Origin: Streptomyces torulosus
Lineage (GTDB): Bacteria; Actinomycetota; Actinomycetes; Streptomycetales; Streptomycetaceae
Assembly: GCF_001419765.1 (NCBI RefSeq)
Contig: NZ_LIRK01000299.1
Location: 1-34,590, forward strand
DNA: 34,590 nt
Direction: 5' to 3'
Shown in pieces: positions 3,420 to 21,384 of the stretch; the stretch's first letter is position 1; every line of letters begins with the position of its first letter. Position numbers and translations under genes: made by a program. The notes below the pieces were generated by a model. The model saw only the letters and a list, made by a program, of their open reading frames with translations. It was not told the DNA's origin and did no database searches.

Positions 3420-4028
3420 TTACTCTTGAGGGGCCGCTGTCGATGCCAGGCCTCGCCATGCGAGCGGCAGCAGTCCTGCCGCCAGGGCGGTCTTGAGCGC
3501 GTCGGTGATGAGGAAAGGGGTGACTCCCAGCGCGATGGCCTGCTGGGCGCCGAGGTGCAGGTCCATGGCCAGCCACACGGTCCCGGCCAGGTAGATGACC
3601 GCGTTGCCCAGCGTCATCAGACCCACGGTGCCCAGGATGCCTCGGTCGTTGCCGCGGCGGGCGAGTTCGCCGACGAGGACGGCGGCGAGGACGAACCCGA
3701 CGACATAGCCGAAGCCGGGGCCGCCCAGGCCGTGGGTGTGATTGGCGAACCAGGGCACTCCGGCGGCACCGGCGGCGAGATAGAGCAGCATGGCCGCCGC
3801 CCCGCGAACGGTACCGAGCGCGGTGCCGACCAGCAGGACCGCGAGGGTCTGGAAGGTGAAGGGCACGGGGCTGAGCGGTGTGTGCAGGGAGACCTGGGCG
3901 CAGAGGCCGGTGAGGCCCGCGCCGCCGACGACGAGAAGCGTGTCCCGCAGGAGGGCGGATCCGGGGACCAGGTCGGCAAGGACTCCGGGATGGGCGCTCG
4001 GTCGCAGGGAGGCGGTCGTGGTGGTCAT
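3420..4028 (-). CDS. bioY: Biotin transporter BioY
   Basis: Membrane protein of 202 residues, the usual size of BioY, the substrate-binding S component of biotin ECF transporters. The family signature PVPFTFQTLAVLLVGTALG near residues 54-72 is clear, followed by several hydrophobic segments and the conserved GxPGFGYVVGFVLAA region. The ATG at 4028 overlaps the stop of the HAD gene by four bases (ATGA). It is the last gene of the carboxylase operon, where biotin uptake would serve the biotin-dependent carboxylase. No bioM/bioN partners are visible, so it would work alone or with distant energy-coupling genes. Confidence 0.93.
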   Translation of the reverse strand: MTTTTASLRPSAHPGVLADLVPGSALLRDTLLVVGGAGLTGLCAQVSLHTPLSPVPFTFQTLAVLLVGTALGTVRGAAAMLLYLAAGAAGVPWFANHTHGLGGPGFGYVVGFVLAAVLVGELARRGNDRGILGTVGLMTLGNAVIYLAGTVWLAMDLHLGAQQAIALGVTPFLITDALKTALAAGLLPLAWRGLASTAAPQE

Positions 4029-4921
4029 GTCGGTACGGGTCCGTTCTCGATGGGGTGGGAGTGCAGGGCGGGCAACAGGGTGGTCAGCCCGCCCACACCC
4101 TCGACGGTGAGATGCGGGCGCTGCTCCGTGGGCAGCGTGGCGAAGTGGTCCGCCGCGTGGATGCCGGTGGTTACGGCGATGCCGAGAGCGCCGGCACGCC
4201 GGGCCATGGCCATCTCCAGTTCAGGGTCGTCTCCGACGACGGCGAGGTGTTGCGGGGCCAGGCCCAGACGGCGCGCGGCGCAGCGCAGGCCGGTCAACGA
4301 GGGCTTTCCCATGACCTGTTCGGTGACACCCGTGACACTGCTGATCATGGCGCAGATGGCCCGGGACGTGCCCAGTGCCCGACCGTCGGCGCTGGCGAAG
4401 AACACCGACTGTGAGCTGCTGTAAAGGGTGGCGCCTCCGAAGACGGCGTGGCAGGCGGTTTCCAGGTCGTCCATCGTGAACTCGCGGTACCAGCCGACGA
4501 GCACGGCGTCGGCTTCCGGCTTCCCCGTGGGTTCGACGATCTCGATGCCGGCTTGGCGCAGCGGCTCCTTCAGGCCGTCGCCGCCGAGCACCAGCGCGCT
4601 GCGGTGTCCCATGGCCAGGAAGTGGTCGACGGCACTGGTCGCCGGAGTGAGCATGGCGTCGTCCGGCAGGTCGAACCCGATGCGGCGCAGCGTCTCGGCG
4701 TAGGCCGACGGAGTGCGGGTGGTGCCGTTGGTGAAGGTGACCCAGGGCAGGCCGCGGGCGGTGAGGGCGGCCGTGACTTCCAGGGCTCCAGGGAGGGGAG
4801 TGAGCCCGTGGTTGCGCCGGTCGCCCAGGACGAGCGTGCCGTCCATGTCGAAGACGACGCCGCGGACGGCCCGCAGACGGTTGGTCAGGTCGGCGGCCTC
4901 GTCAGGCTGGTCGGCGGTCAC
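4025..4921 (-). CDS. HAD-superfamily (class IIA, NagD-like) phosphatase
   Basis: Predicted phosphatase of 298 residues. Motif I is FDMDGTLVLGD with the nucleophile Asp25 and acid Asp27. Motif II is FTNGTT, Lys sits in MGKPSL, and the last acidic motif is VVGDDPELEMAMA followed by the typical C-terminal GIAVTTG. The cap between motifs II and III fits class IIA enzymes such as NagD or p-nitrophenyl phosphatases. The start is GTG at 4921 with TGGAG seven bases upstream; it overlaps the carboxyltransferase gene by 20 bases and bioY by 4. In this operon it could hydrolyse a phosphorylated intermediate made by the dikinase-like subunits or clear a misphosphorylated side product; both are inference. 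Confidence 0.88.
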   Translation of the reverse strand: MTADQPDEAADLTNRLRAVRGVVFDMDGTLVLGDRRNHGLTPLPGALEVTAALTARGLPWVTFTNGTTRTPSAYAETLRRIGFDLPDDAMLTPATSAVDHFLAMGHRSALVLGGDGLKEPLRQAGIEIVEPTGKPEADAVLVGWYREFTMDDLETACHAVFGGATLYSSSQSVFFASADGRALGTSRAICAMISSVTGVTEQVMGKPSLTGLRCAARRLGLAPQHLAVVGDDPELEMAMARRAGALGIAVTTGIHAADHFATLPTEQRPHLTVEGVGGLTTLLPALHSHPIENGPVPT

Positions 4922-6377
4922 GGTGCAGCTCCAGTCGGAAGTCGGGCCGGTCCAGGACCAGTTCGGGGGTTGCCGGGCGTGTCCGCAGGCCTTGGAGCAG
5001 GTCGAGCACCGGTTTGACGTCGGGGTTGTAGTGCCGCCGAGCCGGACCGGCGGCCACCATGGCGTCCACCTGTTCTGCGGGCATGGTGGCCCGCAGGAGC
5101 AGTTCTTCGTCGCTGATGCCGCGCGGGAAGCGCCGGCGCAGTTCCGCGACGGTGGGCGGAGGTGGTTCGGCGGCGAGTTCCTTCGCCCGGGGCCGTCCCA
5201 GGATGCGGTCGGCGACCTGCGGGTCCACGGGGGCGGTGGGGCGGCCGAAGCTGCCCAGCACGTACCGGATCACCGGGTCGGAGACGTTCTCGTAGCGTTC
5301 GGTGCCGATCACGTTGTAGAGGGCCTGGGTGCACACCATCTGTGGGAAGGGGGTGACCATGATGGGGTGGCCGAGTTCGGCGCGGACGCGGGTCACCTCC
5401 TCGATGACCGCGTCGAAGCGGTCGCTGAAGCCCAATTCGTCGAGCTGCCGGTGCAGGGTGGTCATCACACCGCCGGCCACCTGGTGGCGCATGAACGCGG
5501 CGTCGTAGTCCCGGGGGCCGCCCACGGGCAGCCCCTCGGCCGCGGCCATGCCGTCGAAGTAGTCGGCGACCACGCTCAGTAGCCGGTCGTCGACGTCCAC
5601 GGTGTGGCCGATTTCGCGCAGATTGGCCACGACCTGCTGGGCGTTGGGCAGGGACGTGCCGCCCGCGAGAGCCCCGCAGGCCACTTGGAGGGCCTGTACG
5701 CCCAGGTCGGCGGCCTTGAGGTAGGTCAGGCCCGGCAGACCGATCGTGCAGTGGGAGTGCAGCTCCAGCGGTGTGCCGACGAGCTTGCCCAGGACTGTCG
5801 GGATCAGCGTCGCGGCGCGTTCCGGAGTCAGCAGTCCGCCGGGGTCCTTGATGTAGACCCGGTCGATGTCCGGGCAGGCGGCCATCTGCGCCGCGAGCGA
5901 GGCGTAGTGGGCGTCGTCGTGGACGTCGCTGACGGTGAAGGTCAGTGCTCCGACGATCTCGGTGGCCCCAGCTGCTCGGATCATGCGGGCGGACTCGCGT
6001 ACGGCGTCCATGTCGTGCATGGGGTCCAGGACGACGTAACGGGTGACCCCGTTCACCACCAGCCGGTCGTAGACCAGTTGCATGAACTCGGGATGGGCGA
6101 CCTCCCAGGAGATGAAGCGCAGCCCGGTGCCGATGAACTGCAAGGGGGTGTTCGGCATGGCGCGGTGCGTCAGCCGTATCCGCTCCCACGGGTCCTCGCG
6201 GTGGGTGCGCACCGCCATGCCCATGTGGGTGCTGGAGGTGTAGTCGAGGGCGCGGAAGCCGACCCGGTCAAGGACTGGCGCGACCTGGAGGATCTTGCCG
6301 GTGTCGAGTCCGGTGGCGCCCCACAGGCTCTGGTTGCCGTCGCGCAGCGACACGTCGACGAGCTGGATGTCAGCCAC
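4902..6377 (-). CDS. Biotin-dependent carboxyltransferase subunit (pyruvate-carboxylase/OadA type)
   Basis: 491 residues with an HMGL-like TIM barrel (about 5-270) and a PYC/OADA conserved domain (about 285-430). It would move the carboxyl from carboxybiotin to a substrate carbanion or enolate. Visible landmarks are LRDGNQ (Arg12, Asp13, Gln16), Lys177 in YIKDPGGL (the carbamylated metal-ligand Lys of the family), His207 and His209 in LHSHC, and Thr241 in AGGTSLPN. Compared with pyruvate carboxylase, HxHDT is HSHCT, and the LLRG motif that carries the pyruvate-carboxylate-binding Arg (human R644) aligns by eye with IGTG, leaving Thr84. No biotinyl domain is fused; it is encoded separately at 7731-8225. 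The start is GTG 6377 with GGGAG upstream. The substrate is therefore probably not pyruvate. Confidence 0.9.
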   Translation of the reverse strand: MADIQLVDVSLRDGNQSLWGATGLDTGKILQVAPVLDRVGFRALDYTSSTHMGMAVRTHREDPWERIRLTHRAMPNTPLQFIGTGLRFISWEVAHPEFMQLVYDRLVVNGVTRYVVLDPMHDMDAVRESARMIRAAGATEIVGALTFTVSDVHDDAHYASLAAQMAACPDIDRVYIKDPGGLLTPERAATLIPTVLGKLVGTPLELHSHCTIGLPGLTYLKAADLGVQALQVACGALAGGTSLPNAQQVVANLREIGHTVDVDDRLLSVVADYFDGMAAAEGLPVGGPRDYDAAFMRHQVAGGVMTTLHRQLDELGFSDRFDAVIEEVTRVRAELGHPIMVTPFPQMVCTQALYNVIGTERYENVSDPVIRYVLGSFGRPTAPVDPQVADRILGRPRAKELAAEPPPPTVAELRRRFPRGISDEELLLRATMPAEQVDAMVAAGPARRHYNPDVKPVLDLLQGLRTRPATPELVLDRPDFRLELHRDRRPA

Positions 6378-7734
6378 GGCTGCTCCCTACTGGAAGGTCC
6401 CGCAGAAAGCGGGTGAACCAGGCGGTGTCCACGCCACCCTCGGCGAACTCGGCCTGTGCCAGCACCTCTTGGTGCAGCGGGATGTTGGTGCTGACCCCGA
6501 CGACCGCACACCGGGCCAGGGCGGCGCGCAGCCGTGCCAGCGCGTCGGCACGGTCCCGGCCGTGGACGATCAGCTTCGCGAGCAGCGAGTCGTAGTACGG
6601 CGGTACGCTCGCACCCGCCTGGAGGTGCGTGTCGATCCGGATGCCGTCACCGAGCGGCCAGACCGCCTCGGTCACAGTGCCGGGGCTTGGCTGGAAGTCA
6701 CGTGCCCAGTCCTCGGCGTTGATCCGACACTCGATGGCGTGTCCCGTGAAGCACACGTCCGCCTGTCCGAAGGAGAGCGATCGCCCCTCGGCGACGGCGA
6801 GTTGCTCCGCGACGAGATCCAGTCCGGTGATGGCCTCGGTGACCGGGTGCTCGACCTGGATGCGGGCGTTCATCTCCAGGAAGTAGAAGGTGCCCCGGTC
6901 GACGTCGACCAGGAACTCGACCGTGCCCAGGCCCCGGTACTCCAGATGCTTGCCGAGGGCCACCGCGGCACGGTGCATCTCCTCGCGCAGGGCCGGGTCG
7001 AGAGCGGGCGCGGGCGCCTCTTCGATCAGCTTCTGGTAGCGGCGCTGCACGGAGCAGTCGCGGGTGCCGAGGTGAACGACGTTCTCGCCGTCCGCGATGA
7101 GCTGGACCTCCACATGCCGCCCGGTGGCGACGAAGCGTTCGAGGTAGACGCGGGGGTCCCCGAAGGCGGCGCCCGCCTCGGCGACGGCCAGGTCGACGGT
7201 GGCGGACAGGTCCGCCGGATCGTGCACCTGCTTCATGCCCCGGCCGCCGCCACCGCCGACCGCCTTGATCAGCAGGGGGTAGCCGATCTCCGCGGCAAGC
7301 CGGGCCGCGTCGGCTGTGTCCTCCAGCGGCCCGCCGGGTACCACTGGCAGACCGGCCGCCACGGCATGCCGACGGGCCTCCAACTTGTCGCCCACTGAGG
7401 CGAGTTGTTCCACCGTGGGGCCGATGAACACGATGCCGGCCTCGGTGCAGGCCCTGGCCAGCCGCTGGTTCTCGGAGAGGAAGCCGTACCCGGGATGGAT
7501 GGCGTCGGCGCCGGCGGTTTTCGCCGCCGTGAGGACGGCGTCCACGTCCAGGTAGCTGGCCGAGGGCGGGGCGGGGCCGAGGCGCACCACCCGGTCGGCC
7601 AGTCGGGCCGGTACGGAGTCGAGGTCGGCGTCGGAGGCGGCGAGCACCGCCTCGATGCCGAGCCGCCTGCACGTACGGATGATGCGCAGGGCGATTTCAC
7701 CCCGGTTGGCGATCAGAACGCGTCGCAGGATCAC
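6370..7734 (-). CDS. Biotin carboxylase subunit
   Basis: 454 residues, the standard length of free-standing AccC-type biotin carboxylases, which use ATP and bicarbonate to carboxylate biotin on the carrier protein. The N-terminal domain starts LRRVLIANRGEIALRII. The ATP-grasp Gly-rich loop is GGGGGRGMK, and the active-site segment is EMNARIQVEHPVTE. The C-terminal domain has IECRINAEDW. Start GTG 7734 overlaps the BCCP stop by four bases (GTGA), and its own stop overlaps the carboxyltransferase start by eight. The operon context makes it the carboxylating half of the complex rather than a housekeeping acetyl-CoA carboxylase subunit. Confidence 0.95.
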   Translation of the reverse strand: MILRRVLIANRGEIALRIIRTCRRLGIEAVLAASDADLDSVPARLADRVVRLGPAPPSASYLDVDAVLTAAKTAGADAIHPGYGFLSENQRLARACTEAGIVFIGPTVEQLASVGDKLEARRHAVAAGLPVVPGGPLEDTADAARLAAEIGYPLLIKAVGGGGGRGMKQVHDPADLSATVDLAVAEAGAAFGDPRVYLERFVATGRHVEVQLIADGENVVHLGTRDCSVQRRYQKLIEEAPAPALDPALREEMHRAAVALGKHLEYRGLGTVEFLVDVDRGTFYFLEMNARIQVEHPVTEAITGLDLVAEQLAVAEGRSLSFGQADVCFTGHAIECRINAEDWARDFQPSPGTVTEAVWPLGDGIRIDTHLQAGASVPPYYDSLLAKLIVHGRDRADALARLRAALARCAVVGVSTNIPLHQEVLAQAEFAEGGVDTAWFTRFLRDLPVGSSRG

Positions 7735-8225
7735 GGCGCCACTCCTGTCGCCAGTGTGTCGATGAACATGAGCACGGCACCCTGCTCGGCGAACTCTCCG
7801 TCGCCCAAGACGATTTCGGCCACCGTGCCGGAGGCCTCCGCGTACACGGAGTTCATCAGTTTCATCGTCTCGACGATCCCGACGACCGTGGTCTCGGTGA
7901 CCTCGTCCCCGATCTCGACGAAGGGGGCCGCGCCGGGTTTCGGCGCCCGGTAGAAGGCACCGGGCAAAGGTGTACGGACCCCGGTCAGACCCTCGCGGGC
8001 GGGCTCAGTCTGCTCGTCCGCAGCTGCCACGCCCTGGACCGCGGGTACTTCACGGCCATCGACCAGCACCGGTTCGGCTGTCGTGCGCGCGGACTGTGTC
8101 CACTCGCCGTCGCCGCCACGGCAAAGCGACAGTTCGAACCGACCCGTGCGCAGATAGAGGCGGTCGACCTCCATGCCGTCGATGATCCGCAGGATGTCCT
8201 GGACGTCCTCGCCGGTCAGGTTCAC
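7731..8225 (-). CDS. Biotin carboxyl carrier protein
   Basis: 164 residues from GTG 8225, which overlaps the upstream stop as GTGA and has a GGGAG site. The C-terminal biotinyl domain carries the biotinylation motif VETMKLMN with Lys122, the expected M-K-L/M-M context. The N-terminal part (NLTGEDVQDILRIIDGMEVD, then LRTGRFELSLCR) resembles the AccB N-terminal segment that docks on biotin carboxylase. A variable linker of about 40 residues joins them. The frame is open upstream to 8402, but that part is out of family. As a separate carrier it would shuttle carboxybiotin between the carboxylase and the carboxyltransferase encoded next. Confidence 0.92.
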   Translation of the reverse strand: MNLTGEDVQDILRIIDGMEVDRLYLRTGRFELSLCRGGDGEWTQSARTTAEPVLVDGREVPAVQGVAAADEQTEPAREGLTGVRTPLPGAFYRAPKPGAAPFVEIGDEVTETTVVGIVETMKLMNSVYAEASGTVAEIVLGDGEFAEQGAVLMFIDTLATGVAP

Positions 8226-9322
8226 TTCGTACTCCCACCGGGGCCGGAGCCCGCGCCGCCGAGCAGCGACAGCACGTGGTCGAACGCCCTGGCCTTCGGC
8301 GAGGCCACCGGGGCCTTCTCCCTGCTCGCCCAGACGGTCTCGGGACGGCTTTGGAGCAGGTAGATGTTGTGGCCGGGGACGAGGTTGCGGGAGATCGCCC
8401 ACTCGATGTCCTGCGGTGCCCCGTAGTGGGACTCGACCTGCCGGCCGAGCCGTACGAGTTCGTGGATCTCCTCGTCGGACAGGCAGGGTTCGTCCCGGAG
8501 GTATTCCGGTACGTCCTCCTCCAGCACACCGGAGCCGCTGGGGTCCATCCGGTGCTGTCGCAGCTTCGCCGAGACGGTACGGGAGCAGATGTCCCCGGTC
8601 ACCTTGCCGACCACGTACTTGTCGGGTGTCACGTCACCGCTGACGAGAGCGGACCCCAGGCCCCAGGACGCTTCCAGGGCGACGACCGAGCGGTCCCCGG
8701 TGAGCGGGCTGCGGGTGAACATGACACCGGCGCAGCGCGGGTCGATCATGCGCTGGACGACGACGGCCATGGCGAGGTCGTGCTCCGGCAGGCCGAGGCG
8801 ACGCCGGTAGCTGACCGACTCGACGCTGTAGAGGCTGGCCCAGCAGCGGCGGACGTTCTCGACGAGGGAGTCCTCGCCGCGCACCCACAGGTAGGTGTCC
8901 TGCAGACCGGCGAAGCTGGCGTCCTCCGCGTCCTCGCTGGTGGCGCTGGAACGTACGGCGACGGGGGCGGGCTCACCCGGGGTGTCGGACTCGCTGTCCA
9001 GGCCGCGGTAGTGGCCGCGGATCGCCGACGCCACCTCTTCGGGCAGTTCGGCCGCCTCGATGCGCTCCCTGACGGGTGTGACCACGCGGGTGATCGCCTC
9101 GGTGTCCTCGGAGTCCAGCGCCTCGATGGCGGTGCGGATCTCGCCGTCCGGGTCGAGGACGCCGAGGAAGGCCTCGAAGGCCGTGGTGGTGACGACGTAG
9201 CCGGGCGGTACGGGGGCGCCGGCGAAGGTGAGTTCGCCGAGGCTCGCGCCCTTGCCGCCGACCGTGGGCCGGTCCGTCAGCCGCAGTTCCGCGAACCGGC
9301 GGACATGGGATGAGGTGTTCAT
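8222..9322 (-). CDS. PEP-synthase-like ATP-binding subunit of a split dikinase
   Basis: 366 residues covering only the PEP synthase/PPDK nucleotide-binding domain, which transfers phosphoryl from ATP to the histidine of a swivelling domain. Landmarks are TVGGKGASLGELTFAGAPVP at the start, VAVRSSATSEDAEDASFAG, CAGVMFTRSPLTGD, and the closing YLLQSRPETVW. There is no phosphohistidine domain and no PEP/pyruvate barrel; the histidine domain is in the gene just upstream (9340-11160). Size and split match the 40-kDa subunit of phenylphosphate synthase from Thauera. ATG 9322 with GGGAG seven bases upstream is preferred to GTG 9337. The gap to the preceding gene is 17 bases, and it overlaps the BCCP gene by 4. 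Confidence 0.9.
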   Translation of the reverse strand: MNTSSHVRRFAELRLTDRPTVGGKGASLGELTFAGAPVPPGYVVTTTAFEAFLGVLDPDGEIRTAIEALDSEDTEAITRVVTPVRERIEAAELPEEVASAIRGHYRGLDSESDTPGEPAPVAVRSSATSEDAEDASFAGLQDTYLWVRGEDSLVENVRRCWASLYSVESVSYRRRLGLPEHDLAMAVVVQRMIDPRCAGVMFTRSPLTGDRSVVALEASWGLGSALVSGDVTPDKYVVGKVTGDICSRTVSAKLRQHRMDPSGSGVLEEDVPEYLRDEPCLSDEEIHELVRLGRQVESHYGAPQDIEWAISRNLVPGHNIYLLQSRPETVWASREKAPVASPKARAFDHVLSLLGGAGSGPGGSTK

Positions 9323-9339
9323 TGTCGTGCTCCCCACGC

Positions 9340-11160
9340 TCAGTCGAGGATGGTGACGATGCCGCGGTCGCCGTCCACGCGCAGCCGCTGGCCGGTGGTG
9401 ATCCGCTTGGTGGCGTGGCCGGTGCCAACGACGGCGGGCAGCCCGTACTCACGGGCCACGATCGCCGCGTGCGACATGGTGCCGCCGATGTCCGAGACGG
9501 CGGCCGCGATCTTGCCGAAGACCGGGCCCCAGCTGGGCGCGGTCACCGGACAGACCAGCACCTCGCCCTCCCGTACCTGGCCGATGTCGTTGGCGCTCAG
9601 CAGCACCCGGGCGGTGCCCTCGACGACGCCCGGCGAGGCGGCGAAACCGCGTACCTCGTGATCGCCGTCCGCGGTCGGTGTGGACCAGGCCCGGATGGTC
9701 TCGGCGGTGATGCCCCACAGCATGCGCACCGCCGGGTCGTTGAGCGCCTCGGGGACCGGTCCCAGCGCGGGCGGCGGGGACCAGCCCGCGAGGGCGTCCA
9801 GCATCCGCTTGCGCTCAGCGACTGTCTCGCGCACGTGCGCCGAGCCCACCGGCTTGCTCCCGGCCGCCCAGGCGAGCATCACGTCCGTCAGAGCCTGGCC
9901 GACCTCGGTGTGGTTCAGCTGGAAGACGTCCTCGGCGTCGGCCAGGACACCCTGATCGCGCAGCAGCTCGCCGAACTCGCGGACCTTGGCGAAGAACTTC
10001 GTGGTGAAGTAGTGCTCGCAGTAGAAGTTGTGGTCCTCCACGAAGGGGAACACCACCCGGGCCAGGCCCAGCATCTGGTCGAAGGCGGCCTGCTCCTCCT
10101 CGCCGGCCAGCAGGGAGCGGTACTCCTGGGCGATGCGCTCGCGCTCGGCCGTGAGCTGTTCGGTGGGGCGGTCGAGCGGCTCGCCCCTCCTGGCCTGGTC
10201 GACATAGCCGGGCAGCGCCGCGAACGGCACCGTGAGGTCGTCGTTCCAGCTGCGGTGGTGATGGTAGAAACCGGCACCGGTCGACATGTTGAACCACGGC
10301 TCGCGCGCGGCGTCCATCGCCTCCAGCCAGCGGCGGCCGCCGTCCCCGCGGGCGGCGAGCGCGGCCAGCACCTTGTCGGGCTCGCAGCCCTCGACGAAGA
10401 GATCGTCGACGCCGTACTCGACCGCCAGCTTCGCCAGCTTCTTCAGCTCGTCGTCCGGGCGGTAGAGGATGACGTCGATCCCGGCGACCATGCGGGCCAC
10501 GTCCTGGTCGGGGATCTCCGGGAACGACGTCTTGCAGAACTCGAAGAACACGACGTAGGCGCCGTAGCCGAGCATCAGGAACTCGGAGTGGTGGTGCCAC
10601 ATCTTGGAGTACAGGTCGATCAGCCGGTGGTAGTTCTCCCGGACGTAGTGGTTCTGGGCCACGCCCTTGGCCTGGAACACGACCTCCGGGTCCTCGAACT
10701 CGGGCAGCCGGGGCACCTCGATCCGCTGCACCTCGTCGATCAGCGCGGTGATGCGGGCGACCCAGCCCTGGTAGAGCTCGTCCCAGTTCTCGTAGTAGTA
10801 CCCCGCCCGCTCACTGAACTCCGCGAGCCTGCGCTGAATCTCCTCGGGGTCGGTGACCGGGTTGGCGGTGATGTAGACCCGGCCGTTGACGATGCGGTGC
10901 TCGATGCCGAGCGTGGTGGGGAAGACGAACATGCGCGCGGTGTTCGCGCCGAGAGCGGTGTAGGGCGCCTCGGCAGTGATGGCGTCGAACGCGGGCATCG
11001 GCTCGGGGAAGTGCATCGCGTTGTAGAACCAGAACCGCTGGTCGTCCCCCGGCTGGAACCGGGTGTAGTACGGGTACATCGACGCCCAGCCTTCGGCACC
11101 CGCGACGTCGGTCAGCTCCGAGGGCAGTGGGAAGCGGGGGGCGGGTCTGGCATCGTTCAC
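9340..11160 (-). CDS. PEP-synthase-like phosphohistidine subunit (phenylphosphate-synthase large-subunit type)
   Basis: 606 residues. The C-terminal swivelling domain (about 500-606) has the motif GGTMSHAAIVAREYGLPA with the phospho-acceptor His564, then VVGTGHATKRI. The first 500 residues form an uncommon domain rich in Tyr, Trp and His (YPYYTRFQPGDDQRFWF, SKMWHHHSEFLMLGYGAYV, GFYHHHRSWND), as in phenylphosphate synthase large subunits and the acceptor-binding domain of rifampin phosphotransferases. The PEP/pyruvate TIM barrel is absent, so the phosphoryl acceptor is unlikely to be pyruvate. Size and likely His position agree with the 70-kDa phenylphosphate synthase subunit. GTG 11160 has GGAG seven bases upstream. 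Predicted role: phosphorylate a small hydroxyl or enol substrate from phosphohistidine. Confidence 0.88.
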   Translation of the reverse strand: MNDARPAPRFPLPSELTDVAGAEGWASMYPYYTRFQPGDDQRFWFYNAMHFPEPMPAFDAITAEAPYTALGANTARMFVFPTTLGIEHRIVNGRVYITANPVTDPEEIQRRLAEFSERAGYYYENWDELYQGWVARITALIDEVQRIEVPRLPEFEDPEVVFQAKGVAQNHYVRENYHRLIDLYSKMWHHHSEFLMLGYGAYVVFFEFCKTSFPEIPDQDVARMVAGIDVILYRPDDELKKLAKLAVEYGVDDLFVEGCEPDKVLAALAARGDGGRRWLEAMDAAREPWFNMSTGAGFYHHHRSWNDDLTVPFAALPGYVDQARRGEPLDRPTEQLTAERERIAQEYRSLLAGEEEQAAFDQMLGLARVVFPFVEDHNFYCEHYFTTKFFAKVREFGELLRDQGVLADAEDVFQLNHTEVGQALTDVMLAWAAGSKPVGSAHVRETVAERKRMLDALAGWSPPPALGPVPEALNDPAVRMLWGITAETIRAWSTPTADGDHEVRGFAASPGVVEGTARVLLSANDIGQVREGEVLVCPVTAPSWGPVFGKIAAAVSDIGGTMSHAAIVAREYGLPAVVGTGHATKRITTGQRLRVDGDRGIVTILD

Positions 11161-11220
11161 GGGGCTCTCCAGGGTGTGCGGCTCAGGCGGTAGGGAGCGG
11201 GGATCCGAGGGTGGTGCGGC

Positions 11221-13296
11221 TCAGACGGTGGCGGTGGCCAGGGGGTAGTCGCGCTGGGTACGGGCGTAGCGGGCAAGTGCGTCGAGCGCGCGCGGGTCGG
11301 CGACCGTGCTGCGGTCGGCCGCCTGTTCGACGGGGGTGCCGAGCAGGATGCGGCGCGCCGGCACCTCGAGCTTCTTGCCGGTCAGGGTGGTCGGGACGGC
11401 CGGGACCTGGATGATGCGGTCCGGTACGTGGCGGGGGCTGTACTCGCGGCGGAGTCGGTCCCGGATCGTCTGCTGGAGGCCGGCGTCGAGGGTGACGCCG
11501 TCGGTCAGGGCGACGAACAGCGGCATGAAGAACTTCTCGTCCGGCAGGTCGAGGCTGACCACCAGAGCTCCCGTGACCTGGTCGAGGGCTTCGACGACCC
11601 GGTAGATCTCCGCGGTGCCGATGCGCACGCCCTGCCGGTTGAGGGTGGCGTCGGCGCGGCCGAGTACGAAGCAGCCGCCGCGAGCGTTGACCTTGAAGAA
11701 GTCGCCGTGTCGCCAGGCGCCCGGGAAGTCCTCGAAGTACGTACGGCGGTACCGTTCGTCCCCGTCCGGGCCCCAGAATGTGACCGGCATGGACGGCAGC
11801 GGCTCCGTGATCACCAGCTCGCCGACCTCGTCCACGACCTGGCGGCCGTGCTCGTCGTAGGCGTACGCGGCGACCCCCAGCGAGCGTGCCTGCATCTCGC
11901 CGGCGTACACGGGAAGGGTGGGCACTCCGCCGACGAATCCGGTGCAGCAGTCGGTGCCGCCGCTGCCGGTGGCGATCCACAGGTCCGCCTTGACGTTGCC
12001 GTAGAACCAGGCGGTGCACTGGGGTGACACCGGTGAGCCGGCGGGCATGACCGTGCGCAGGGCGGACAGGTCGTAGCGTTCGCCGGGGACGATGCCGGCC
12101 TTGGTCATGAGGTCGACGTAGGCGGGGCTGGCGCCGAAGAAGGTGGTCCGGGTGTCCTGCGCGATCCGCCACAGAACGTCCGGCTCCGGGTGGGCGGGGT
12201 TGCCGTCGTAGAGCACTGGGCAGGCGCCGACCAGCAGGGAGCTGATCAGGAAGTTCCACATCATCCAGCCGGTAGTGGTGAAGAACAGCGGCCGGTCGCC
12301 CTCGCGCAGGTCCATGTGGAAGGTCTGCAGCTTCAGCTGTTCGAGCAGGATGCCGCCGTGCCCGTGGATGATCGCCTTGGGCAGTCCCGTCGTACCGGAG
12401 GAGAAGAGCACCCACAGCGGGTGGTCGAAGGGGACGGGCTCGAAGTCGAAGTCTTCGGCGGGAACGGGCGGGTGGTCGAGGACCTCGTCCCAGCGCAGGC
12501 CGCCGACGGCCAGCGGCTCGTCGTACCCGTCGTCGAGGACGGGAAGGTGGATCACGTGCTCCAGGCCGGGAAGCGCGTCGGCGATGCGGCGCACCTCGTC
12601 CCGGCGGTCGAAGGTCTTTCCGCCGTAGCGGTAGCCGTCGACGCAGAACAGGACCTTCGGCCTGAGCTGGCCGAACCGGTCGATGACGCCTCGCGACCCG
12701 AAGTCGGGGGAAGCGCTCGCCCATACGGCCCCGATGGCCGTCGTCGCGAGCATCGCGATCGCGGCCTGAGGCACGTTCGGCAGATATCCGCAGACCCGGT
12801 CGCCGGGGCGTACGCCGAACGCCCGCAACCGGGTCGCCAGGACGCGCACCCGGCCCGCGAAGTCCTCCCACGGAAGACCGACGGGAGCGGCGCTCTCGGA
12901 GCCGAACACCACGGCGTCGGTGCCCGACCGTTCGTTTCGCAGGACGTGCTCGGCGTAGTTCAGCCGCGCCCCGGGAAACCACCGCGCCCCCGGCATGCCC
13001 CGGCCGTCGAGCACCGAGGAGTACGGGGCCGTCGACCGAATGCCGAAGTAGTCCCACAGGGCGCCCCAGAATCCCTCCAGGTCGGTGACGGACCAGTTCC
13101 ACAGCTCGTCGTATCCGTCGAACCGCAGCCCCCGTTCCCGGGACAGCCAGTCCGCGAACCGCGTGACATTGGCCTCCGCGACCCGCCGCGGGCCGGGCGT
13201 CCACAGCAGCTCGCCTTCGGCCACCACGGCGGCCCCGCCGGCTGCGCCGTGTGCCCGACCAGTGGCAGGGAAGCCCCCTGCTGTCTCGACGGTCAT
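11221..13296 (-). CDS. Acetoacetyl-CoA synthetase-like acyl-CoA ligase
   Basis: 691 residues of the ANL superfamily (AMP-forming ligases). The ACAS-type N-terminal region has RWFPGARLNYAEHVLR. The phosphate loop is FSSGTTGLPKAIIHGHGGIL, a form typical of acetoacetyl-CoA synthetases. Later motifs are ATGSGGTD, WRHGDFF, ADATLNRQGVRIGTAEIYR and the catalytic Lys in TLTGKKLEVP. It would convert acetoacetate or a related beta-keto acid to its CoA ester with ATP. ATG 13296 has an excellent GAGGAGG site; ATG 13314 does not. It is the first gene of the operon, 60 bases before the dikinase subunit, and its presence suggests that the carboxylation product is a beta-keto acid. Confidence 0.92.
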   Translation of the reverse strand: MTVETAGGFPATGRAHGAAGGAAVVAEGELLWTPGPRRVAEANVTRFADWLSRERGLRFDGYDELWNWSVTDLEGFWGALWDYFGIRSTAPYSSVLDGRGMPGARWFPGARLNYAEHVLRNERSGTDAVVFGSESAAPVGLPWEDFAGRVRVLATRLRAFGVRPGDRVCGYLPNVPQAAIAMLATTAIGAVWASASPDFGSRGVIDRFGQLRPKVLFCVDGYRYGGKTFDRRDEVRRIADALPGLEHVIHLPVLDDGYDEPLAVGGLRWDEVLDHPPVPAEDFDFEPVPFDHPLWVLFSSGTTGLPKAIIHGHGGILLEQLKLQTFHMDLREGDRPLFFTTTGWMMWNFLISSLLVGACPVLYDGNPAHPEPDVLWRIAQDTRTTFFGASPAYVDLMTKAGIVPGERYDLSALRTVMPAGSPVSPQCTAWFYGNVKADLWIATGSGGTDCCTGFVGGVPTLPVYAGEMQARSLGVAAYAYDEHGRQVVDEVGELVITEPLPSMPVTFWGPDGDERYRRTYFEDFPGAWRHGDFFKVNARGGCFVLGRADATLNRQGVRIGTAEIYRVVEALDQVTGALVVSLDLPDEKFFMPLFVALTDGVTLDAGLQQTIRDRLRREYSPRHVPDRIIQVPAVPTTLTGKKLEVPARRILLGTPVEQAADRSTVADPRALDALARYARTQRDYPLATATV

Positions 13297-13367: not shown

Positions 13368-13382
13368 TTTCACCTGGTGAAA
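13368..13382. promoter_or_regulatory. Perfect palindrome, candidate IclR operator
   Basis: TTTCACCTGGTGAAA is a perfect inverted repeat with a 7-base arm on each side of a central T, in the 120-base gap between the divergent ligase and IclR genes. A related half-site, AGGTGAAAA, occurs just inside the IclR coding region at about 13430. IclR proteins bind palindromes of about this size. Assignment to the neighbouring regulator is inferred from position. Confidence 0.6.
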
Positions 13383-13416: not shown

Positions 13417-14229
13417 ATGCGGCAGTACCAGGTGAAAACGATCACCTCTCTCGAGCGGGGCCTACAGGTGCTGAAGGCCCTGGAGGAGATGCGTGCCGCC
13501 AGCCTGCACGACCTGCACCAGGTCACCGGCATCCCCAAAGCCACCCTGATCCGCATCCTCCACACCTGCAACCAGGAGGGCCTGGTCTGGCAGCGGCTCG
13601 CCGACGGGGCGTTCGTCGCGAGCCTCAGACCCCAGAGGGCCCCGTACAACGACGTCGAGTGGCTCGGCGAGCTGGCGTCGTCGGTCCTGGAGGAGCTGTG
13701 CGAGCGCGTGATGTGGCCGTCCGTGCTGACCGTGCCCCGGCTGGACTACATGGAGACGATCGACACCAACAGTCCCAAGGCGTACTTCGACGAGGTGGTC
13801 CCCGTCGCGCCCATCGGTTTCCGTTCGCACATGCTGCTCGGCGCTTCGGGCCGCGCCTACATCGCCTTCTGCGCCGAGCGGGAGCGGGAGGCGGTCCTGC
13901 GCCGCCTGCGCGAGCACGATGCTCCGGGCAACGCATACGCCCACGACCCGGGCTGGCTGCGGCGTCTGCTGGCGACCACCCGGTCCCGGGGATACAGCGT
14001 GCGCGCACCGGAGTACGACTTCGACGGTCGCAACTCGATCGCCGTACCGATCCGCCTGCACGGGGAGGTCCTGGGATGCGTCAACGTGACCTGGCGCAAG
14101 ACGGTCATGTCCGCGCAGGAAGTGGCACGGCGCCACCTGGACGACCTGCGGGCCGCGGTGCACCGGATCGAAGAGCGGGCTTCGGCGGCCGTCCCGCAAC
14201 GACACGGGCCCGGCGGCGACGAGATCTGA
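13417..14229 (+). CDS. IclR-family transcriptional regulator
   Basis: 270 residues, a normal IclR length. The N-terminal winged helix-turn-helix contains ITSLERGLQVLKALEE and LHQVTGIPKATLIRILHT. The C-terminal effector domain has the conserved RSHMLLGASGRAYIAF, ending in SIAVPIRLHGEVLGCVNVTW. The overall character resembles MhpR-like members that control aromatic or ketone catabolism. ATG 13417 lies behind GGTGAGGG. It is divergent from the carboxylase operon and flanks the palindrome at 13368, so it is the likely substrate-responsive regulator of that operon. Confidence 0.92.
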   Translation: MRQYQVKTITSLERGLQVLKALEEMRAASLHDLHQVTGIPKATLIRILHTCNQEGLVWQRLADGAFVASLRPQRAPYNDVEWLGELASSVLEELCERVMWPSVLTVPRLDYMETIDTNSPKAYFDEVVPVAPIGFRSHMLLGASGRAYIAFCAEREREAVLRRLREHDAPGNAYAHDPGWLRRLLATTRSRGYSVRAPEYDFDGRNSIAVPIRLHGEVLGCVNVTWRKTVMSAQEVARRHLDDLRAAVHRIEERASAAVPQRHGPGGDEI

Positions 14230-16177: not shown

Positions 16178-18598
16178 CTACAGCTCGAATTGCCCGCCGA
16201 CGAAGGTCGCCAGCAGCTTGGCCGGCGACAGCGGCACCTCGGTCCAGATGGTCTTGCCTCTCGACGTGTACCGGGTTCCCCAGCTCCGGGTCAGCTGTGC
16301 GACCAGGAACAGACCTCGGCCGCCCTCGTCCTCCATCGCGGCCCGCCGCAGGTGGGGCGAGGTGTGGCCGCCGTCGGAGACCTCGACGATGAGGCCACGT
16401 TCCCGAATGAGCCGTAGACACACCGGAGCGCCGCCATAGCGGATCGCGTTGGTGACCAGCTCGCTGACGACGAGCTCGACGACGAACGACGCCTCTTCGT
16501 CGACTCCCCACGCGGCGAGCTGATCGCGGGACAGCGACCGTGCTCTTGCCACTTCTCCGGCGTCGGGGGCCATGTCCCACGTCGCCACCAGACTCTCGGC
16601 CAGGGCGTGGACGCGGAGCAGCAGCAGTGCTGCGTCGTCCTCGGGGGCTTGGGGCAGGAGTCTGGTGATGACCCTGTCGCATGTCTTGTCCAGTCGGCCG
16701 TCCGCGGGCCTGGCGAGTGCGGTGCAGAGAGAGCGGACTCCTGCGTCGATGTCCGTCTGACGGTTTTCGACGAGTCCGTCGGTGTAGAGAGCGAGCGTGG
16801 CGCCTTCCGGCAGCTCGATGTCGGCGCATTCGAACGGCAGGCCGCCCAGGCCGAGGGGCGGTCCGGCGGGAAGGTCCACCAGCTCGGCGTGTCCGTCGGG
16901 GGTGACCAGCACGGGTGGCAGATGGCCCGCACGCGCCATGACGCAGTGCCGGGAGACCGGATCGTAGATCGCGTACAGGCAGGTGACGCCCAGTGCCTGG
17001 TCCTCGGCCTCGGCGGGCCCGGAAGGCGGTGCGCCGGTTCGCGCCACCAAGTCGTCGAGGCGGGCGAGCAGTTCGTCCGGCGCGAGGTCGAGCGCCGCGA
17101 GCGCCGCGACGGTGGTGCGCATCCGCCCCATGGTGGCGGCCGCGCCCGTGCCGTGTCCGGCGACATCCCCCACCACCAGCCCGACGCGTGCCCCGGAGAG
17201 GGGAATGACGTCGTACCAGTCCCCTCCGACGCCGGCGGGCCCGGCCGCGGGCAGATAGCGGTGAGCGACCTCCACGCCCGGCTGCTGGGGCAGGGTGCGA
17301 GGGAGAAGATCACGCTGGAGCGTGAGCGCGGTCGCGTGTTCTCGGGTGTAACGGCGGGCGTTGTCCAGGCAGACCGCGGTGCGGGAGACGAGCTCTTCGG
17401 CGAGCTGAATCTCCTCCTGTTCGAAGGGGTCGGCGTCTCGGGAGCGTGCGAAGGCCACCACGCCCAGGGTGGCGCCACGGGCCTTGAGCGGAAGGGCGAG
17501 CACACGGGCGGCCGCGTCGGTGGCCGGCGTGTTCTCGGCCAGGCACCGCAGGCGGACGGTGTCCAGTTCGTCGTACGCGGTGTCCTTGGCCGCGGCGTGA
17601 TCGGTGCGGTGAGTCACCCGGCACAGGGTGGGACGAGTGTCGAAGTGTTGTGGTTCCTGCCCGCTCAGGACGGCTTCGAAGACATCCACGGTGACGGCAT
17701 CGGCGAACTCGGGAACCGCGAGTTCCGCCAGCTCTCCGGCCGTGCGCCGGATGTCCAGGGTTCTTCCGATACTGCCGCTCGCCCGGCTGAGCAGGGCGAG
17801 ACGCTGGCGTGCCACATAGCGGTCGGTGATGTCGAGGGCCGCCTCACAGACTCCGATCGGACGGCCTTCCCCGTCCTGGAGTCGGAAGTAGGAACACGAC
17901 CAGACGCGTGCGCGATGGGGGTCCAGGGGGGTGGTGCTGCGGTAACGGACGTCGACCACGGGTGCGCCGGTGCGGGCCACGCGCTGGACGATCTCCTCGA
18001 CGCTCGTCGTGACCGTCCCGTCGGCCTCCGCCAGCACCTCGCCCTGCGGCAGGATGTCCTTCACGAACCTGTCAGCAGCGTCCTCCAGTGGGATTCCGAA
18101 CTGCTTCTCGATCGCAGAGTTGATCCAGTGCACCCGGGCGTCCGTGTCGTAGACCACCAGCTGAACGGGCGCTTCCCGGTCGAGTCCGTCAAGCAGGGCC
18201 CGGCGGACGGTCTCCCGGTGCGCCAGCTCGGCATCCATGGCAGTCAGCAGCCACCCGGTCGCGTCCGCCCCCAGGGCGAGCGGGGTGAGGGACAGGGACA
18301 CGGACACCGGGCGGCCGTCACCGCGGCGGACCGGCCGAGGGCCGAGCGACCACGCCGCACCACCACCAGCGGCTGAGACGCCGGCTCCCGTCTCGGCATC
18401 GGCCAGGACGGCGTCGGCGGACCGGCCGAGGACTTCTTCGGACACCAGTCCGAACAGTTCCTCGGCTTCCCGGCTCCAGCCGGTGAACCGCAGGTGCTGG
18501 TCCAGTACCGCGGTCGCGCCGACGGGCGCAGGTATGGTCAAGGGCGTCGTACCGTGCGGCCGGACCTGCTGGTCGCGCCCTTTGAACATGCTCGTCAT
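16178..18598 (-). CDS. PAS/GAF/SpoIIE-type phosphatase with a C-terminal anti-sigma-like ATPase domain
   Basis: 806 residues of a multi-domain signalling protein common in Streptomyces. By eye the order is PAS (about 20-120), second PAS (130-260, with YDTDARVHWINSA), GAF (275-415), PP2C/SpoIIE phosphatase (430-650, with GGDWYDVIPL, VVGDVAGHG, ALYTDGLVE) and HATPase_c (670-790, with VSELVTNAIRYGG and DEGGRGLFLVAQLT). The phosphatase would dephosphorylate an anti-sigma antagonist, and the ATPase domain resembles RsbW-type anti-sigma kinases. No transmembrane segment is seen, so it is probably cytosolic. ATG 18598 with an AGGAG site is chosen over 18637. It sits 39 bases downstream of the TetR gene on the same strand and may be cotranscribed with it. 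Confidence 0.92.
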   Translation of the reverse strand: MTSMFKGRDQQVRPHGTTPLTIPAPVGATAVLDQHLRFTGWSREAEELFGLVSEEVLGRSADAVLADAETGAGVSAAGGGAAWSLGPRPVRRGDGRPVSVSLSLTPLALGADATGWLLTAMDAELAHRETVRRALLDGLDREAPVQLVVYDTDARVHWINSAIEKQFGIPLEDAADRFVKDILPQGEVLAEADGTVTTSVEEIVQRVARTGAPVVDVRYRSTTPLDPHRARVWSCSYFRLQDGEGRPIGVCEAALDITDRYVARQRLALLSRASGSIGRTLDIRRTAGELAELAVPEFADAVTVDVFEAVLSGQEPQHFDTRPTLCRVTHRTDHAAAKDTAYDELDTVRLRCLAENTPATDAAARVLALPLKARGATLGVVAFARSRDADPFEQEEIQLAEELVSRTAVCLDNARRYTREHATALTLQRDLLPRTLPQQPGVEVAHRYLPAAGPAGVGGDWYDVIPLSGARVGLVVGDVAGHGTGAAATMGRMRTTVAALAALDLAPDELLARLDDLVARTGAPPSGPAEAEDQALGVTCLYAIYDPVSRHCVMARAGHLPPVLVTPDGHAELVDLPAGPPLGLGGLPFECADIELPEGATLALYTDGLVENRQTDIDAGVRSLCTALARPADGRLDKTCDRVITRLLPQAPEDDAALLLLRVHALAESLVATWDMAPDAGEVARARSLSRDQLAAWGVDEEASFVVELVVSELVTNAIRYGGAPVCLRLIRERGLIVEVSDGGHTSPHLRRAAMEDEGGRGLFLVAQLTRSWGTRYTSRGKTIWTEVPLSPAKLLATFVGGQFEL

Positions 18599-18637
18599 CG
18601 CCGCTCCTGGGGTTGGTGCAGGAGAGCTTCGGCTCAT

Positions 18638-19288: not shown

Positions 19289-19326
19289 CCAATCTATCCT
19301 ATTGACAAGTTATCCAGATGGATAGA
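19289..19326. promoter_or_regulatory. Inverted repeat, candidate TetR operator over a promoter
   Basis: AATCTATCC (19289-19297) and GGATAGATT (19318-19326) are perfect 9-base inverted arms 20 bases apart. Inside them lies a second perfect repeat, TATCCAGATGGATA (19309-19322). A TTGACA box at 19300-19305 falls within the repeat, with TAGATT 15 bases later as a possible -10. The site lies between the divergent TetR and GcvT-like genes. Binding by the TetR is inferred. Confidence 0.65.
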
Positions 19327-19371
19327 TTCTCGCTGCAGCGCACGTCTTCTCCTCTCTCCACTGGAGTCCCC

Positions 19372-20493
19372 ATGGCCATCCCCGAAGGACTGACCACCAC
19401 CCCGTTCGCTCCCCGCTACGCGGACCGAGTCGAGGAGTGGATCGACATCTACGGCAACGCCGTACCGCTGGCCATCAGCGACCCGGCCGAGGAGTACCTG
19501 GCCATCCGGACCGCCGTCGGGGCCTCGGAGTACTCGATGCTCTACAAGTGGCATGTCGAGGGTGAGGCTGCGGTCGCCGCCGTCGACGCCGTCTTCTCGC
19601 GCAGCGTCAAGGGTCTGGGCGCCGGACGCATCGCCTACGGGGTCGTGGTCGACGCCGACGGGATGATGCTCGACGACGTGACCGTGGCCGTCCTCGCGCC
19701 CGACCACGTGGTCGTCACCGGCGGCAACCCGGCCACCATGCAGTCGCTGGCCGCGCACGCCCCCGCCGGGACCACGGTCACCGAACGCCGCGACGAGTCC
19801 GCCGTGCTCACCCTGCAGGGCCCGCGCAGCCGGGACGTCCTCCAGCGCCTCACCCACGTCGACGTCTCCAACGCCGCGTTCCCCTACTACACCTTCCTGC
19901 GCGACGCCCTCATCGCGGGCATACCCGCCCAGGTGAGCCGTCTGGGCTTCACCGCCGAGCTCGGCTACGAGATCCAGGTCCCGCGGGAGCAGGCGCTCGC
20001 GTTGTGGGACGCGGTCTTCGAAGCGGGTGCGGACCTCGGGATCAGGGCCTTCGGCGCCATCGCCCTGCTGACCTGCCGCACCGAAGCCGGAATGATCATG
20101 GGGGAGCTGGAGTACGACCACACCGTCACCCCGTTCGAGTGCCGGATGGGCTGGGCGCTGGACTTCGACAAGGGCCCCTTCCAGGGCCGTGACGCGCTCC
20201 TGGCCAAGAAGGACAGCGCCACCGGGCGTGTCGTCAGCGTCGTCGTGGACGCCGCGCCGGAGGCCGCCGAGGGCGCCCGGCTGGAACTGGACGGCCGGGA
20301 CATCGGCTACGTGACCATGGCGCTGCCCTCCCCCGCCCTCGACGGCGCCACCCTCGGCCTGGCCCGGGTCCACCGCGACGCCGTGAAGTCCGGCACCGCG
20401 CTCACCTCCGTCGCCGCCGACGGCTCCAAGGCCGACGCCACCGTCCGGCCCACCCCCGTGTACGACCCCGAGCGCGCCCGCGTGCGGGCCTGA
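19372..20493 (+). CDS. GcvT-family tetrahydrofolate-dependent methyltransferase/demethylase
   Basis: 374 residues of the GcvT/YgfZ/DmdA family, which moves one-carbon groups from N-, O- or S-methyl compounds to tetrahydrofolate. Family marks are ADGMMLDDVTV (the conserved Asp of the GcvT folate site), LTLQGPRSRDVLQRL, LGFTAELGYEIQVPREQA, and GELEYDHTVTPFECRMGWAL with K-x-x-FQGRDALL at the C-terminal domain. ATG 19372 has GGAG at a good distance. No glycine-cleavage P or H genes are nearby; instead purU and folD follow, so it is more likely a catabolic demethylase than a glycine-cleavage T protein. The substrate is not determined by sequence; dimethylglycine, sarcosine or a methoxy compound are candidates. 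Confidence 0.88.
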   Translation: MAIPEGLTTTPFAPRYADRVEEWIDIYGNAVPLAISDPAEEYLAIRTAVGASEYSMLYKWHVEGEAAVAAVDAVFSRSVKGLGAGRIAYGVVVDADGMMLDDVTVAVLAPDHVVVTGGNPATMQSLAAHAPAGTTVTERRDESAVLTLQGPRSRDVLQRLTHVDVSNAAFPYYTFLRDALIAGIPAQVSRLGFTAELGYEIQVPREQALALWDAVFEAGADLGIRAFGAIALLTCRTEAGMIMGELEYDHTVTPFECRMGWALDFDKGPFQGRDALLAKKDSATGRVVSVVVDAAPEAAEGARLELDGRDIGYVTMALPSPALDGATLGLARVHRDAVKSGTALTSVAADGSKADATVRPTPVYDPERARVRA

Positions 20494-20512
20494 CCCGACG
20501 GAGATCCCTACA

Positions 20513-21358
20513 GTGCAACGCTACGTTCTCACGCTCCGCTGCCCCGACCAGCCGGGCATCGTCCACGCGCTCGCCGCGGGCGTCGCGGAGGCCCATGGCA
20601 ACATTCTGGAGAGCGCCCAGTTCTCCGATCCCGGCACCGGTATCTTCACCATCCGTGTGAGCCTGGAGACGTCCGAGGCCGACACCGAGAAGCTGCGGGA
20701 CGAGCTCACGCTGCGGCTGGCCCGCTTCGACCCCGTCCTGACCGTCCGGCCCGAGGAGCAGCGCCGCCGGGTGCTGCTGATGGTGTCGAAGTTCGACCAC
20801 TGCCTGGTCGACCTGCTCTACCGCTGGGACCTGGGTGAACTGCCCGTCGACATCCCGCTGATCGTCTCCAACCACCCCGACCTGGAACCGGTCGTGAAGC
20901 GGTACGGCATCCCCTTCGTCCACCTTCCCGTCACCCGCGACACCAAGCCCGAGGCGGAGGCCGAACTGCTGCGCCTGGTGGCCGAGCACCAGGTCGACTT
21001 CGTGGTGCTCGCCCGCTACATGCAGGTCCTCTCCGACAACCTGTGCCGCAAGCTGTCCGGGAGGGTCATCAACATCCACCACTCCTTCCTGCCGGGCTTC
21101 AAGGGCGCCAAGCCCTACCACCAGGCCCACGACCGGGGCGTCAAACTCATCGGCGCCACCGCCCACTTCGTCACCGCCGACCTCGACGAGGGCCCGATCA
21201 TCGAGCAGGACGTCGTCCGCGTCGGTCATCGCCACACCGCGCCCGAACTGGTCGCGATCGGCCGGGACGTCGAGCGGATCGTGCTGGCCCGGGCGGTCCG
21301 GCTGCACGCGGAGGACCGCGTCGTCCTCACCGGCTCCCGCACCGTCGTCTTCGCCTGA
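20513..21358 (+). CDS. purU: Formyltetrahydrofolate deformylase
   Basis: 281 residues, the usual PurU length. An N-terminal ACT domain ([20 protein letters not shown]) precedes the formyl-transferase-type hydrolase domain, which has [20 protein letters not shown] and [20 protein letters not shown] with the conserved catalytic His and Asp. It hydrolyses 10-formyl-tetrahydrofolate to formate and free tetrahydrofolate. GTG 20513 has GGAG upstream and lies 19 bases after the GcvT-like gene. Next to folD it completes a route from folate-bound C1 units to formate, as in catabolic demethylation clusters. Confidence 0.95.
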
Positions 21359-21384
21359 CGACCGCATCGAGAGGCTCGTACGAC

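Follow-up and report, generated by a model that had tools for sequence, protein, structure and literature searches.

What does an operon do that joins a phosphohistidine dikinase to a biotin-dependent carboxylase? Eight minus-strand genes of Streptomyces torulosus raise this question; they lie at 3420-13296 of the window, by which we mean the whole 34,590-nt stretch analysed here (contig NZ_LIRK01000299.1). A first-pass annotation, made from the letters alone, had taken the combination for a new pathway in which acetone or butanone is phosphorylated as its enol, carboxylated on the methyl group and activated with CoA. On sequence comparison, the operon instead carries the gene set of the Hpe pathway published in 2022, minus the HpeF gene and plus a BioY gene; the pathway itself is not new, having been described as the Hpe/Acv pathway of strains GD02 and SYK-6. 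We predict, with a probability of roughly 0.83, that the gene set degrades lignin-type aromatic ketones, more precisely para-hydroxyphenyl methyl ketones such as 4-hydroxyacetophenone and acetovanillone. The methyl ketone of the earlier proposal is retained, although acetone and butanone are replaced by what is likely a para-hydroxyphenyl compound. We hold this predicted substrate class with good confidence; the two ketones named are candidates within it.

The reference system is the eight-gene operon hpeHICBADEF of Rhodococcus rhodochrous GD02, a strain that grows on acetovanillone and 4-hydroxyacetophenone (PNAS 2022, PMC9618137). In the assays described there, HpeHI phosphorylated the phenol hydroxyl, HpeCBA carboxylated the acetyl methyl group of the phospho-ketone but not detectably that of the free ketone, and HpeD removed the phosphate; the CoA step and the cleavage to hydroxybenzoate and acetyl-CoA, assigned to HpeE and HpeF, are proposed only (PMC9618137). 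HpeHI is a dikinase with an essential His581, and a crystal structure of HpeI has been reported (PMC12167813). RHA1 given the GD02 genes grew on hydroxyphenyl ketones, and three such operons have been compared in that host (PMC13101465). Much of the chemistry that the first-pass annotation proposed is therefore already in print for homologous enzymes: the phosphorylating dikinase, the biotin-dependent carboxylation at a ketone methyl group and, as a proposal, the CoA activation of the beta-keto acid. The enol is the part that does not hold, since the published kinase acts on a phenolic hydroxyl instead (PMC9618137).

All eight genes are present with the families first given to them, as judged from the open reading frame (ORF) list and profile matches (Table 1). 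In order of transcription they encode a ligase, HpeH-like and HpeI-like dikinase subunits, a biotin carboxyl carrier protein (BCCP), a biotin carboxylase, a carboxyltransferase, a HAD phosphatase and BioY; by ORF ends, seven of the eight form a chain with overlaps or a 2-base gap, and the ligase gene lies 60 bases upstream of the HpeH-like gene. The features of the Hpe pathway found here are the two-component dikinase, the three-subunit biotin carboxylase with a pyruvate-carboxylase-type carboxyltransferase, the HAD phosphatase and the HpeE-type ligase, the last as in the GD02 form (it is absent from the SYK-6 operon) but as the first gene. The ligase scores 912 bits with NF002937 (cut-off 639) and 802 bits with another acetoacetate-CoA ligase model (cut-off 521). 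The HpeH-like protein matches the PEP-utilizer/phosphohistidine models PF00391 and NF006153, the HpeI-like protein the PPDK_N ATP-grasp domain, the BCCP PF00364 and the carboxyltransferase PYC_OADA; the phosphatase, of HAD IIA type, is above the Pfam cut-off and below those of the NCBIfam models, and BioY has a Pfam match only. The swivel domain of the HpeH-like protein retains SDIGGTMSH with a predicted catalytic His564 (published pattern T/SxxGGxxxH). Also intact are ETMKLM in the BCCP (for biotin), SLRDGNQS, IKDPGG and LHSHC in the carboxyltransferase and FDMDGT in the phosphatase, all of which we take to be catalytic. Among the family matches of the eight proteins there was no PpsC (CBS) or Ppc subunit and no Acx/hydantoinase-type subunit. 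Two start sites needed a choice: ATG 13296 is likelier than 13314 for the ligase because GAGGAGG precedes it, and for the BCCP, whose ORF opens at 8402, GTG 8225 (giving 164 aa) is likelier because this start codon shares bases with the dikinase gene's stop codon, as GTGA.

By analogy with these homologues, the HpeI-like subunit would take ATP and phosphorylate His564 of the HpeH-like subunit, which would hand the phosphate on to the ring hydroxyl of a phenolic ketone. The biotin carboxylase would load CO2 onto the biotin of the BCCP, and the carboxyltransferase would move it to the acetyl methyl carbon, giving a phosphorylated aroylacetate that the HpeD-like phosphatase would dephosphorylate. 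The ligase would make the CoA thioester (predicted product aroylacetyl-CoA), which a hydrolase whose gene lies outside the operon, described below, would cleave to acetyl-CoA and 4-hydroxybenzoate or vanillate, both presumably channelled into protocatechuate. The predicted role of BioY is biotin supply, and that of a divergently encoded IclR protein is regulation of the operon by way of a palindrome.

As a proxy for the GD02 sequence we used a plasmid locus of Rhodococcus sp. JS3073 (L088; loci carry our own numbers), which has the gene order HICBADEF. The HpeI of this locus is almost the same sequence as PDB 9goj, a chain named only as phosphoenolpyruvate synthase that is taken to be the HpeI crystal structure, and its HpeH, 629 aa long, has its phospho-histidine at residue 581, matching PMC12167813. 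Calculated masses of A, B and C (57.5, 49.5 and 17.6 kDa) fall within 0.2 kDa of the published 57.4, 49.3 and 17.4 kDa, and those of H, I and D (70.5, 39.6 and 31.4 kDa) differ by no more than about 1.2 kDa from the values published for the tagged proteins (71.2, 40.6 and 30.2 kDa). Seven of the window's proteins match this locus, each in the corresponding role, at 38-53% identity. As an aside, Table 1 of PMC9618137 names hpeB the carboxyltransferase and hpeA the biotin carboxylase; these labels look swapped, because the domains of the window homologues, together with mass, assign biotin carboxylase to the 49 kDa protein and carboxyltransferase to the 57 kDa protein.

Could the modules nevertheless be two or three independent units, an acyl-CoA carboxylase beside a phenol or cresol kinase, brought together by chance? 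Co-conservation of the dikinase with the biotin subunits had been set beforehand as the test that could refute the first-pass proposal, and we followed it through the best 80 of 177 carboxyltransferase relatives, a set that includes close kin and is thus non-independent. The kinase slot holds HpeH plus HpeI in 42 of these loci, HpeI only in five and a UPF0261 protein in 28, with five lacking sequence before the kinase position; no locus has both a dikinase and a UPF0261 protein. The 42 include partial HpeH matches at contig ends (21% in L021, 43% in L025, 73% in L031), a partial HpeI match (38%, L034) and one HpeH on the other strand (L029). Three of the HpeI-only loci (L019, L024, L070) have little upstream sequence, and two (L010, L041) have room upstream but no HpeH match, L041 holding 95 N. 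The phosphatase is on the same strand in 76 loci, several kb distant in some; the ligase is on the same strand in 23, and 21 of the 42 have it ahead of HpeH; BioY is matched in one (L008). In three other Streptomyces (L008, L009, L011) the order from ligase to phosphatase is kept, at protein identities of 83-98% (73-96% for the BCCP). Because order is kept in these three and dikinase and carboxyltransferase occur together in 42 of 80 loci, the neighbourhood is not a product of chance, and the co-conservation test did not refute the first-pass proposal. In favour of independent units, the biotin carboxylase does pass an acetyl-CoA carboxylase subfamily cut-off (601 vs 597 bits; the BCCP is below the equivalog cut-off), and the annotation shows no carboxyltransferase close to the kinase pair of a Thermomicrobium (L108), the biotin carboxylase gene there being on the other strand. 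Against the joint gene set, the filling of one slot by either kinase and never both, the same-strand phosphatase and the conserved palindrome described below, we give this explanation almost no credence.

The host carboxyltransferase shares 98% identity with its counterpart in Streptomyces sp. MA5143a and 97% with the one in S. stelliscabiei, which marks the host genome as Streptomyces-like. Among 61 genomes (its own and 60 sampled relatives), a carboxyltransferase match at E <= 1e-100 was found in its own genome only, so the operon is rare in the sampled relatives. In S. caniscabiei (L010), neither ligase nor HpeH is matched around 6540-7040 and fragments of the IclR gene directly adjoin the HpeI gene, which suggests a partial deletion of the cluster.

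The UPF0261 (Tm-1-like) gene that occupies the kinase slot in 28 loci lies directly before the BCCP gene, and its product matches PDB 9mpy, a UPF0261 protein, at 1e-134. We infer that MarK, a single-component kinase of Novosphingobium aromaticivorans (PMC13101465), is such a protein. The UPF0261 form is found on plasmids, in Sphingomonas bisphenolicum AO1 (pBAR1) and Pseudomonas putida YC-AE1. Both strains are known as bisphenol degraders, the first also by its species name; bisphenol A breakdown leads to 4-hydroxyacetophenone. Separately, in four loci from Geobacteraceae, Desulfuromonadaceae, Geobacter and Telmatospirillum (L012, L013, L015, L054) two UPF0261 paralogues flank the carboxylase genes, one 60-63% and the other 30-32% identical to the Pseudomonas protein; in these lineages the second may have another role.

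Does the kinase itself reveal the substrate? The window HpeH is 49.3% identical to L088 HpeH, 46.6% to an Azoarcus kinase of phenylphosphate type (L106, adjoining ppcBDAG), 43% to two kinases called cresol-type from their neighbours (L107, L110), 57.0% to a Rhizobium kinase (L109) and 50.7% to the L108 kinase. We built a tree of 47 rows, excluding those with fewer than 480 aligned residues (L005, L021, L025 and L031) as well as the host copy L001, and replacing stops within tblastn matches by X. A split supported at 98/81 places the window and L088 within the same 43 of 47 rows, and the phenylphosphate-type L106, cresol-type L107 and L110 and the haloarchaeal L111 on the other side. The window groups with the three Streptomyces and then with other carboxylase-linked kinases, although its side of the split is not purely carboxylase-linked, because L108 falls there. 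Membership in a phenylphosphate or cresol kinase operon was rejected on this tree and on the neighbours of L106, L107 and L110. Raw identities hardly separate the groups, so the substrate cannot be read off the kinase; the argument for hydroxyphenyl ketones draws on the gene set as a whole, on the chemistry in print and on neighbouring aromatic genes.

Such neighbours are seen in a Burkholderiales locus (L037), where the order ligase-H-I-C-B-A-D (carboxyltransferase 64% and HpeH 66% identical to the window) is followed by an HpeF homologue (63%), a periplasmic binding protein and a 4-hydroxybenzoate 3-monooxygenase (NF006091, 528 bits, cut-off 351). Further on are genes for a LigK-type aldolase, a 4-oxalomesaconate tautomerase and two amidohydrolases, together with the protocatechuate 4,5-dioxygenase genes for LigA and LigB. 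From its predicted genes, the locus reads as a whole route from 4-hydroxyacetophenone to ring cleavage. The Rhizobium locus L109 has the GD02 order HICBAD, then an acetoacetate-CoA-ligase-type gene and an amidohydrolase gene. In the host genome, an HpeF homologue (61%; C73:16043-16909) sits between SDR and acyl-CoA ligase genes with an IclR-type gene nearby, an arrangement resembling a coumarate-type cluster. The host also encodes a 4-hydroxybenzoate 3-monooxygenase (612 bits, subfamily cut-off 351), PcaH and PcaG of protocatechuate dioxygenase (both above their cut-offs) and one VanA_C protein.

This evidence also bears on the original proposal that acetone or another small methyl ketone is carboxylated after enol phosphorylation, the ligase then giving acetoacetyl-CoA. 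The ligase's scores above both acetoacetate-CoA ligase cut-offs (912 vs 639 and 802 vs 521 bits) would suit it, as would a carboxyltransferase of pyruvate carboxylase type. HpeE of the GD02 type, however, comes from a hydroxyphenyl-ketone operon and is the same type of ligase (42% identical to the window's), and the characterised members of the kinase family act on phenols (PMC12167813 and our tree). Moreover, the continuation of L037 into 4-hydroxybenzoate and protocatechuate 4,5-cleavage genes speaks against acetone, and an HpeF-type hydrolase is encoded in six of the 80 loci, in L088 and in L090, with an amidohydrolase at the corresponding position in L109. We consider the acetone route highly improbable. 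The avidin-sensitive Rhodococcus report mentioned in its favour was not found among the best-ranked literature matches, nor did the literature search return anything on a biotin-dependent acetone carboxylase in Rhodococcus; the genus is indeed the source of Hpe, but for acetovanillone. Another lead, a camphor/terpene ketone carboxylase, was rejected, the literature search for a camphor carboxylase having no match.

Several points weigh against the Hpe assignment and its proposed ketones. We know of no assayed member among the closest carboxyltransferase relatives (56-98%), and identities to L088 are only moderate. The window HpeH is hardly nearer to L088 than to the phenylphosphate-type L106, is nearer still to L108, and the branches to L088 and L106 are long (1.41 and 1.72) in a tree rooted at the midpoint for drawing only. 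No HpeF gene was found within the operon, and across the related loci HpeF is matched in only six of 80, many of the stretches being incomplete, and in L026 and L055 the match is either several kb distant or on the opposite strand. The monooxygenases of L037 and of the host both miss the PobA equivalog TIGR02360 (463 and 490 bits, cut-off 539), and for the VanA_C gene as a vanillate demethylase there was no NCBIfam match at E <= 1e-40 with two ORFs tried. An HpeF gene within the operon is not a defining trait of the wider Hpe/Acv group, because in SYK-6, too, the genes for the final two steps lie outside the operon (PMC13101465). Our literature searches found nothing joining hydroxyphenylethanone with Streptomyces, or hydroxyacetophenone with bisphenol and biotin carboxylase.

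The long branch leading to L088, our proxy for the assayed enzymes, would fit the same chemistry on another para-hydroxyaryl ketone (acetosyringone, a propiophenone or a plant-specific acetophenone), as would the differing ketone preferences of published kinases of this kind (PMC13101465). The nearest relatives include Streptomyces species known as plant-associated. The 4-hydroxybenzoate hydroxylases of L037 and the host fit 4-hydroxyacetophenone, and we regard a different aryl ketone as possible though unlikely.

How might the operon be controlled? A divergent IclR-family gene lies upstream, with homologues in 30 of the 111 related and comparison loci, and between it and the ligase gene is the palindrome of Table 1, one arm of which forms a 12-nt inverted repeat with 13427-13438. 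At up to 2 mismatches it is the sole match in the window (0.01 expected), and the whole host genome of 9.8 Mb has no other exact copy. Exact copies occur in seven of the 111 loci (L008, L009, L016, L080, L084, L090 and L109, the last at 8724). We tested 29 of the 30 IclR loci, leaving out L109 (IclR in the other orientation), against single-letter shuffles: 27 have a match with up to 3 mismatches beside the IclR homologue, which in each locus was equalled by 0-2 of 200 shuffles, and L010 and L022 have none; these loci are related and not independent. The palindrome is common to loci of both kinase types and is therefore the predicted IclR operator. Two Novosphingobium loci (L080:5793, L084:5894) carry the exact palindrome at the 3-prime end of the IclR gene or close to it, and the divergent promoter has a looser version with 2 mismatches. 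A bolder extension, possible though unlikely, is that in plant-associated Streptomyces a divergent Hpe lineage destroys plant ketones of the acetosyringone/acetovanillone type by phospho-carboxylation, under one IclR/palindrome regulon that spans phyla with either kinase.

Table 1. Predicted features of the operon and its control region (window coordinates).
Feature	Position	Strand	Basis
Acyl-CoA ligase, acetoacetyl-CoA synthetase type (HpeE-like)	11221..13296	-	profile matches; 42% to L088 HpeE position
HpeH-like dikinase subunit, substrate and swivel domain	9340..11160	-	profile matches; 49% to L088 HpeH; tree
HpeI-like ATP-grasp dikinase subunit	8222..9337	-	best PDB match 9goj_A (1e-82); 43% to L088 HpeI
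BCCP (HpeC-like)	7731..8225	-	profile matches; 51% over 81 aa to L088 HpeC
Biotin carboxylase (HpeB-like)	6370..7734	-	profile matches; 53% to L088 HpeB
Carboxyltransferase, pyruvate carboxylase B / OadA type (HpeA-like)	4902..6377	-	profile matches; 46% to L088 HpeA
HAD phosphatase, IIA type (HpeD-like)	4025..4921	-	profile matches; 38% to L088 HpeD
BioY, predicted substrate-binding component for biotin uptake	3420..4028	-	PF02632, 2e-35
Divergent IclR-family regulator	13417..14229	+	domain match; ORF opens ATG 13417, exact start uncertain
Palindrome TTTCACCTGGTGAAA, predicted IclR operator	13368..13382		between IclR gene and ligase

Elsewhere in the window, plus-strand genes at 19318-26622 encode a glycine-cleavage-T-like protein, a formyltransferase with an ACT domain (presumably resembling formyltetrahydrofolate deformylase), a Rieske oxygenase alpha subunit, a ferredoxin-NAD reductase with a weak DmmA-like match and an amino acid permease, a set whose predicted products are suggestive of demethylation with folate-linked one-carbon recovery. 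On the minus strand, 16178-18637 encodes a protein with PAS, GAF, SpoIIE phosphatase and HATPase domains; regulators of this kind are common in Streptomyces.

What the locus adds to the published pathway is its distribution and its probable control: the Hpe gene set is seen in Streptomyces and many other actinobacteria, the clean swap of two unrelated kinase families fits the published need of the carboxylase for a phosphorylated ketone, and the conserved palindrome offers a testable regulator site for the design of lignin biocatalysts. A 2026 paper reports only four further genomes with a full syntenous operon, and 52 of 836 clusters that link kinase and carboxylase (PMC13101465); our 42 of 80 is not comparable with that rate, because the sets were chosen differently, and the 2025 survey behind the 836 clusters may already list some of these loci.

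Of known systems that carboxylate a ketone methyl group, AcxABC and the acetophenone carboxylase Apc are biotin-independent and belong to a different protein family. The Acv pathway of Sphingobium lignivorans SYK-6 is reportedly the subject of Higuchi et al. 2022. By description, its acvABCDEF genes are homologous and syntenous to hpeHICBAD, and SYK-6 uses VceA and VceB in place of HpeE/HpeF homologues, which it lacks (PMC9618137). The 4-hydroxyacetophenone carboxylase XccBCA of Aromatoleum aromaticum EbN1, likewise compared by description, is homologous and clustered with hpeHI homologues (PMC9618137), in an anaerobic betaproteobacterium unlike the Streptomyces host here. PpsABC with phenylphosphate carboxylase, as in Azoarcus KH32C (L106), shares a homologous dikinase (46.6%) and differs in its CBS-domain gene, its Ppc/UbiD-type carboxylase, which is not homologous to HpeCBA (PMC9618137), and its place on the opposite side of the supported kinase split. 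The GD02 operon shares with the window the two-component dikinase, the carboxylase order C-B-A, the HAD phosphatase, the acetoacetyl-CoA-synthetase-type ligase, overlapping genes and regulator genes upstream. The two differ in that the ligase gene is seventh there and first here, HpeF is in the operon there, and BioY and a Streptomyces host are found here.

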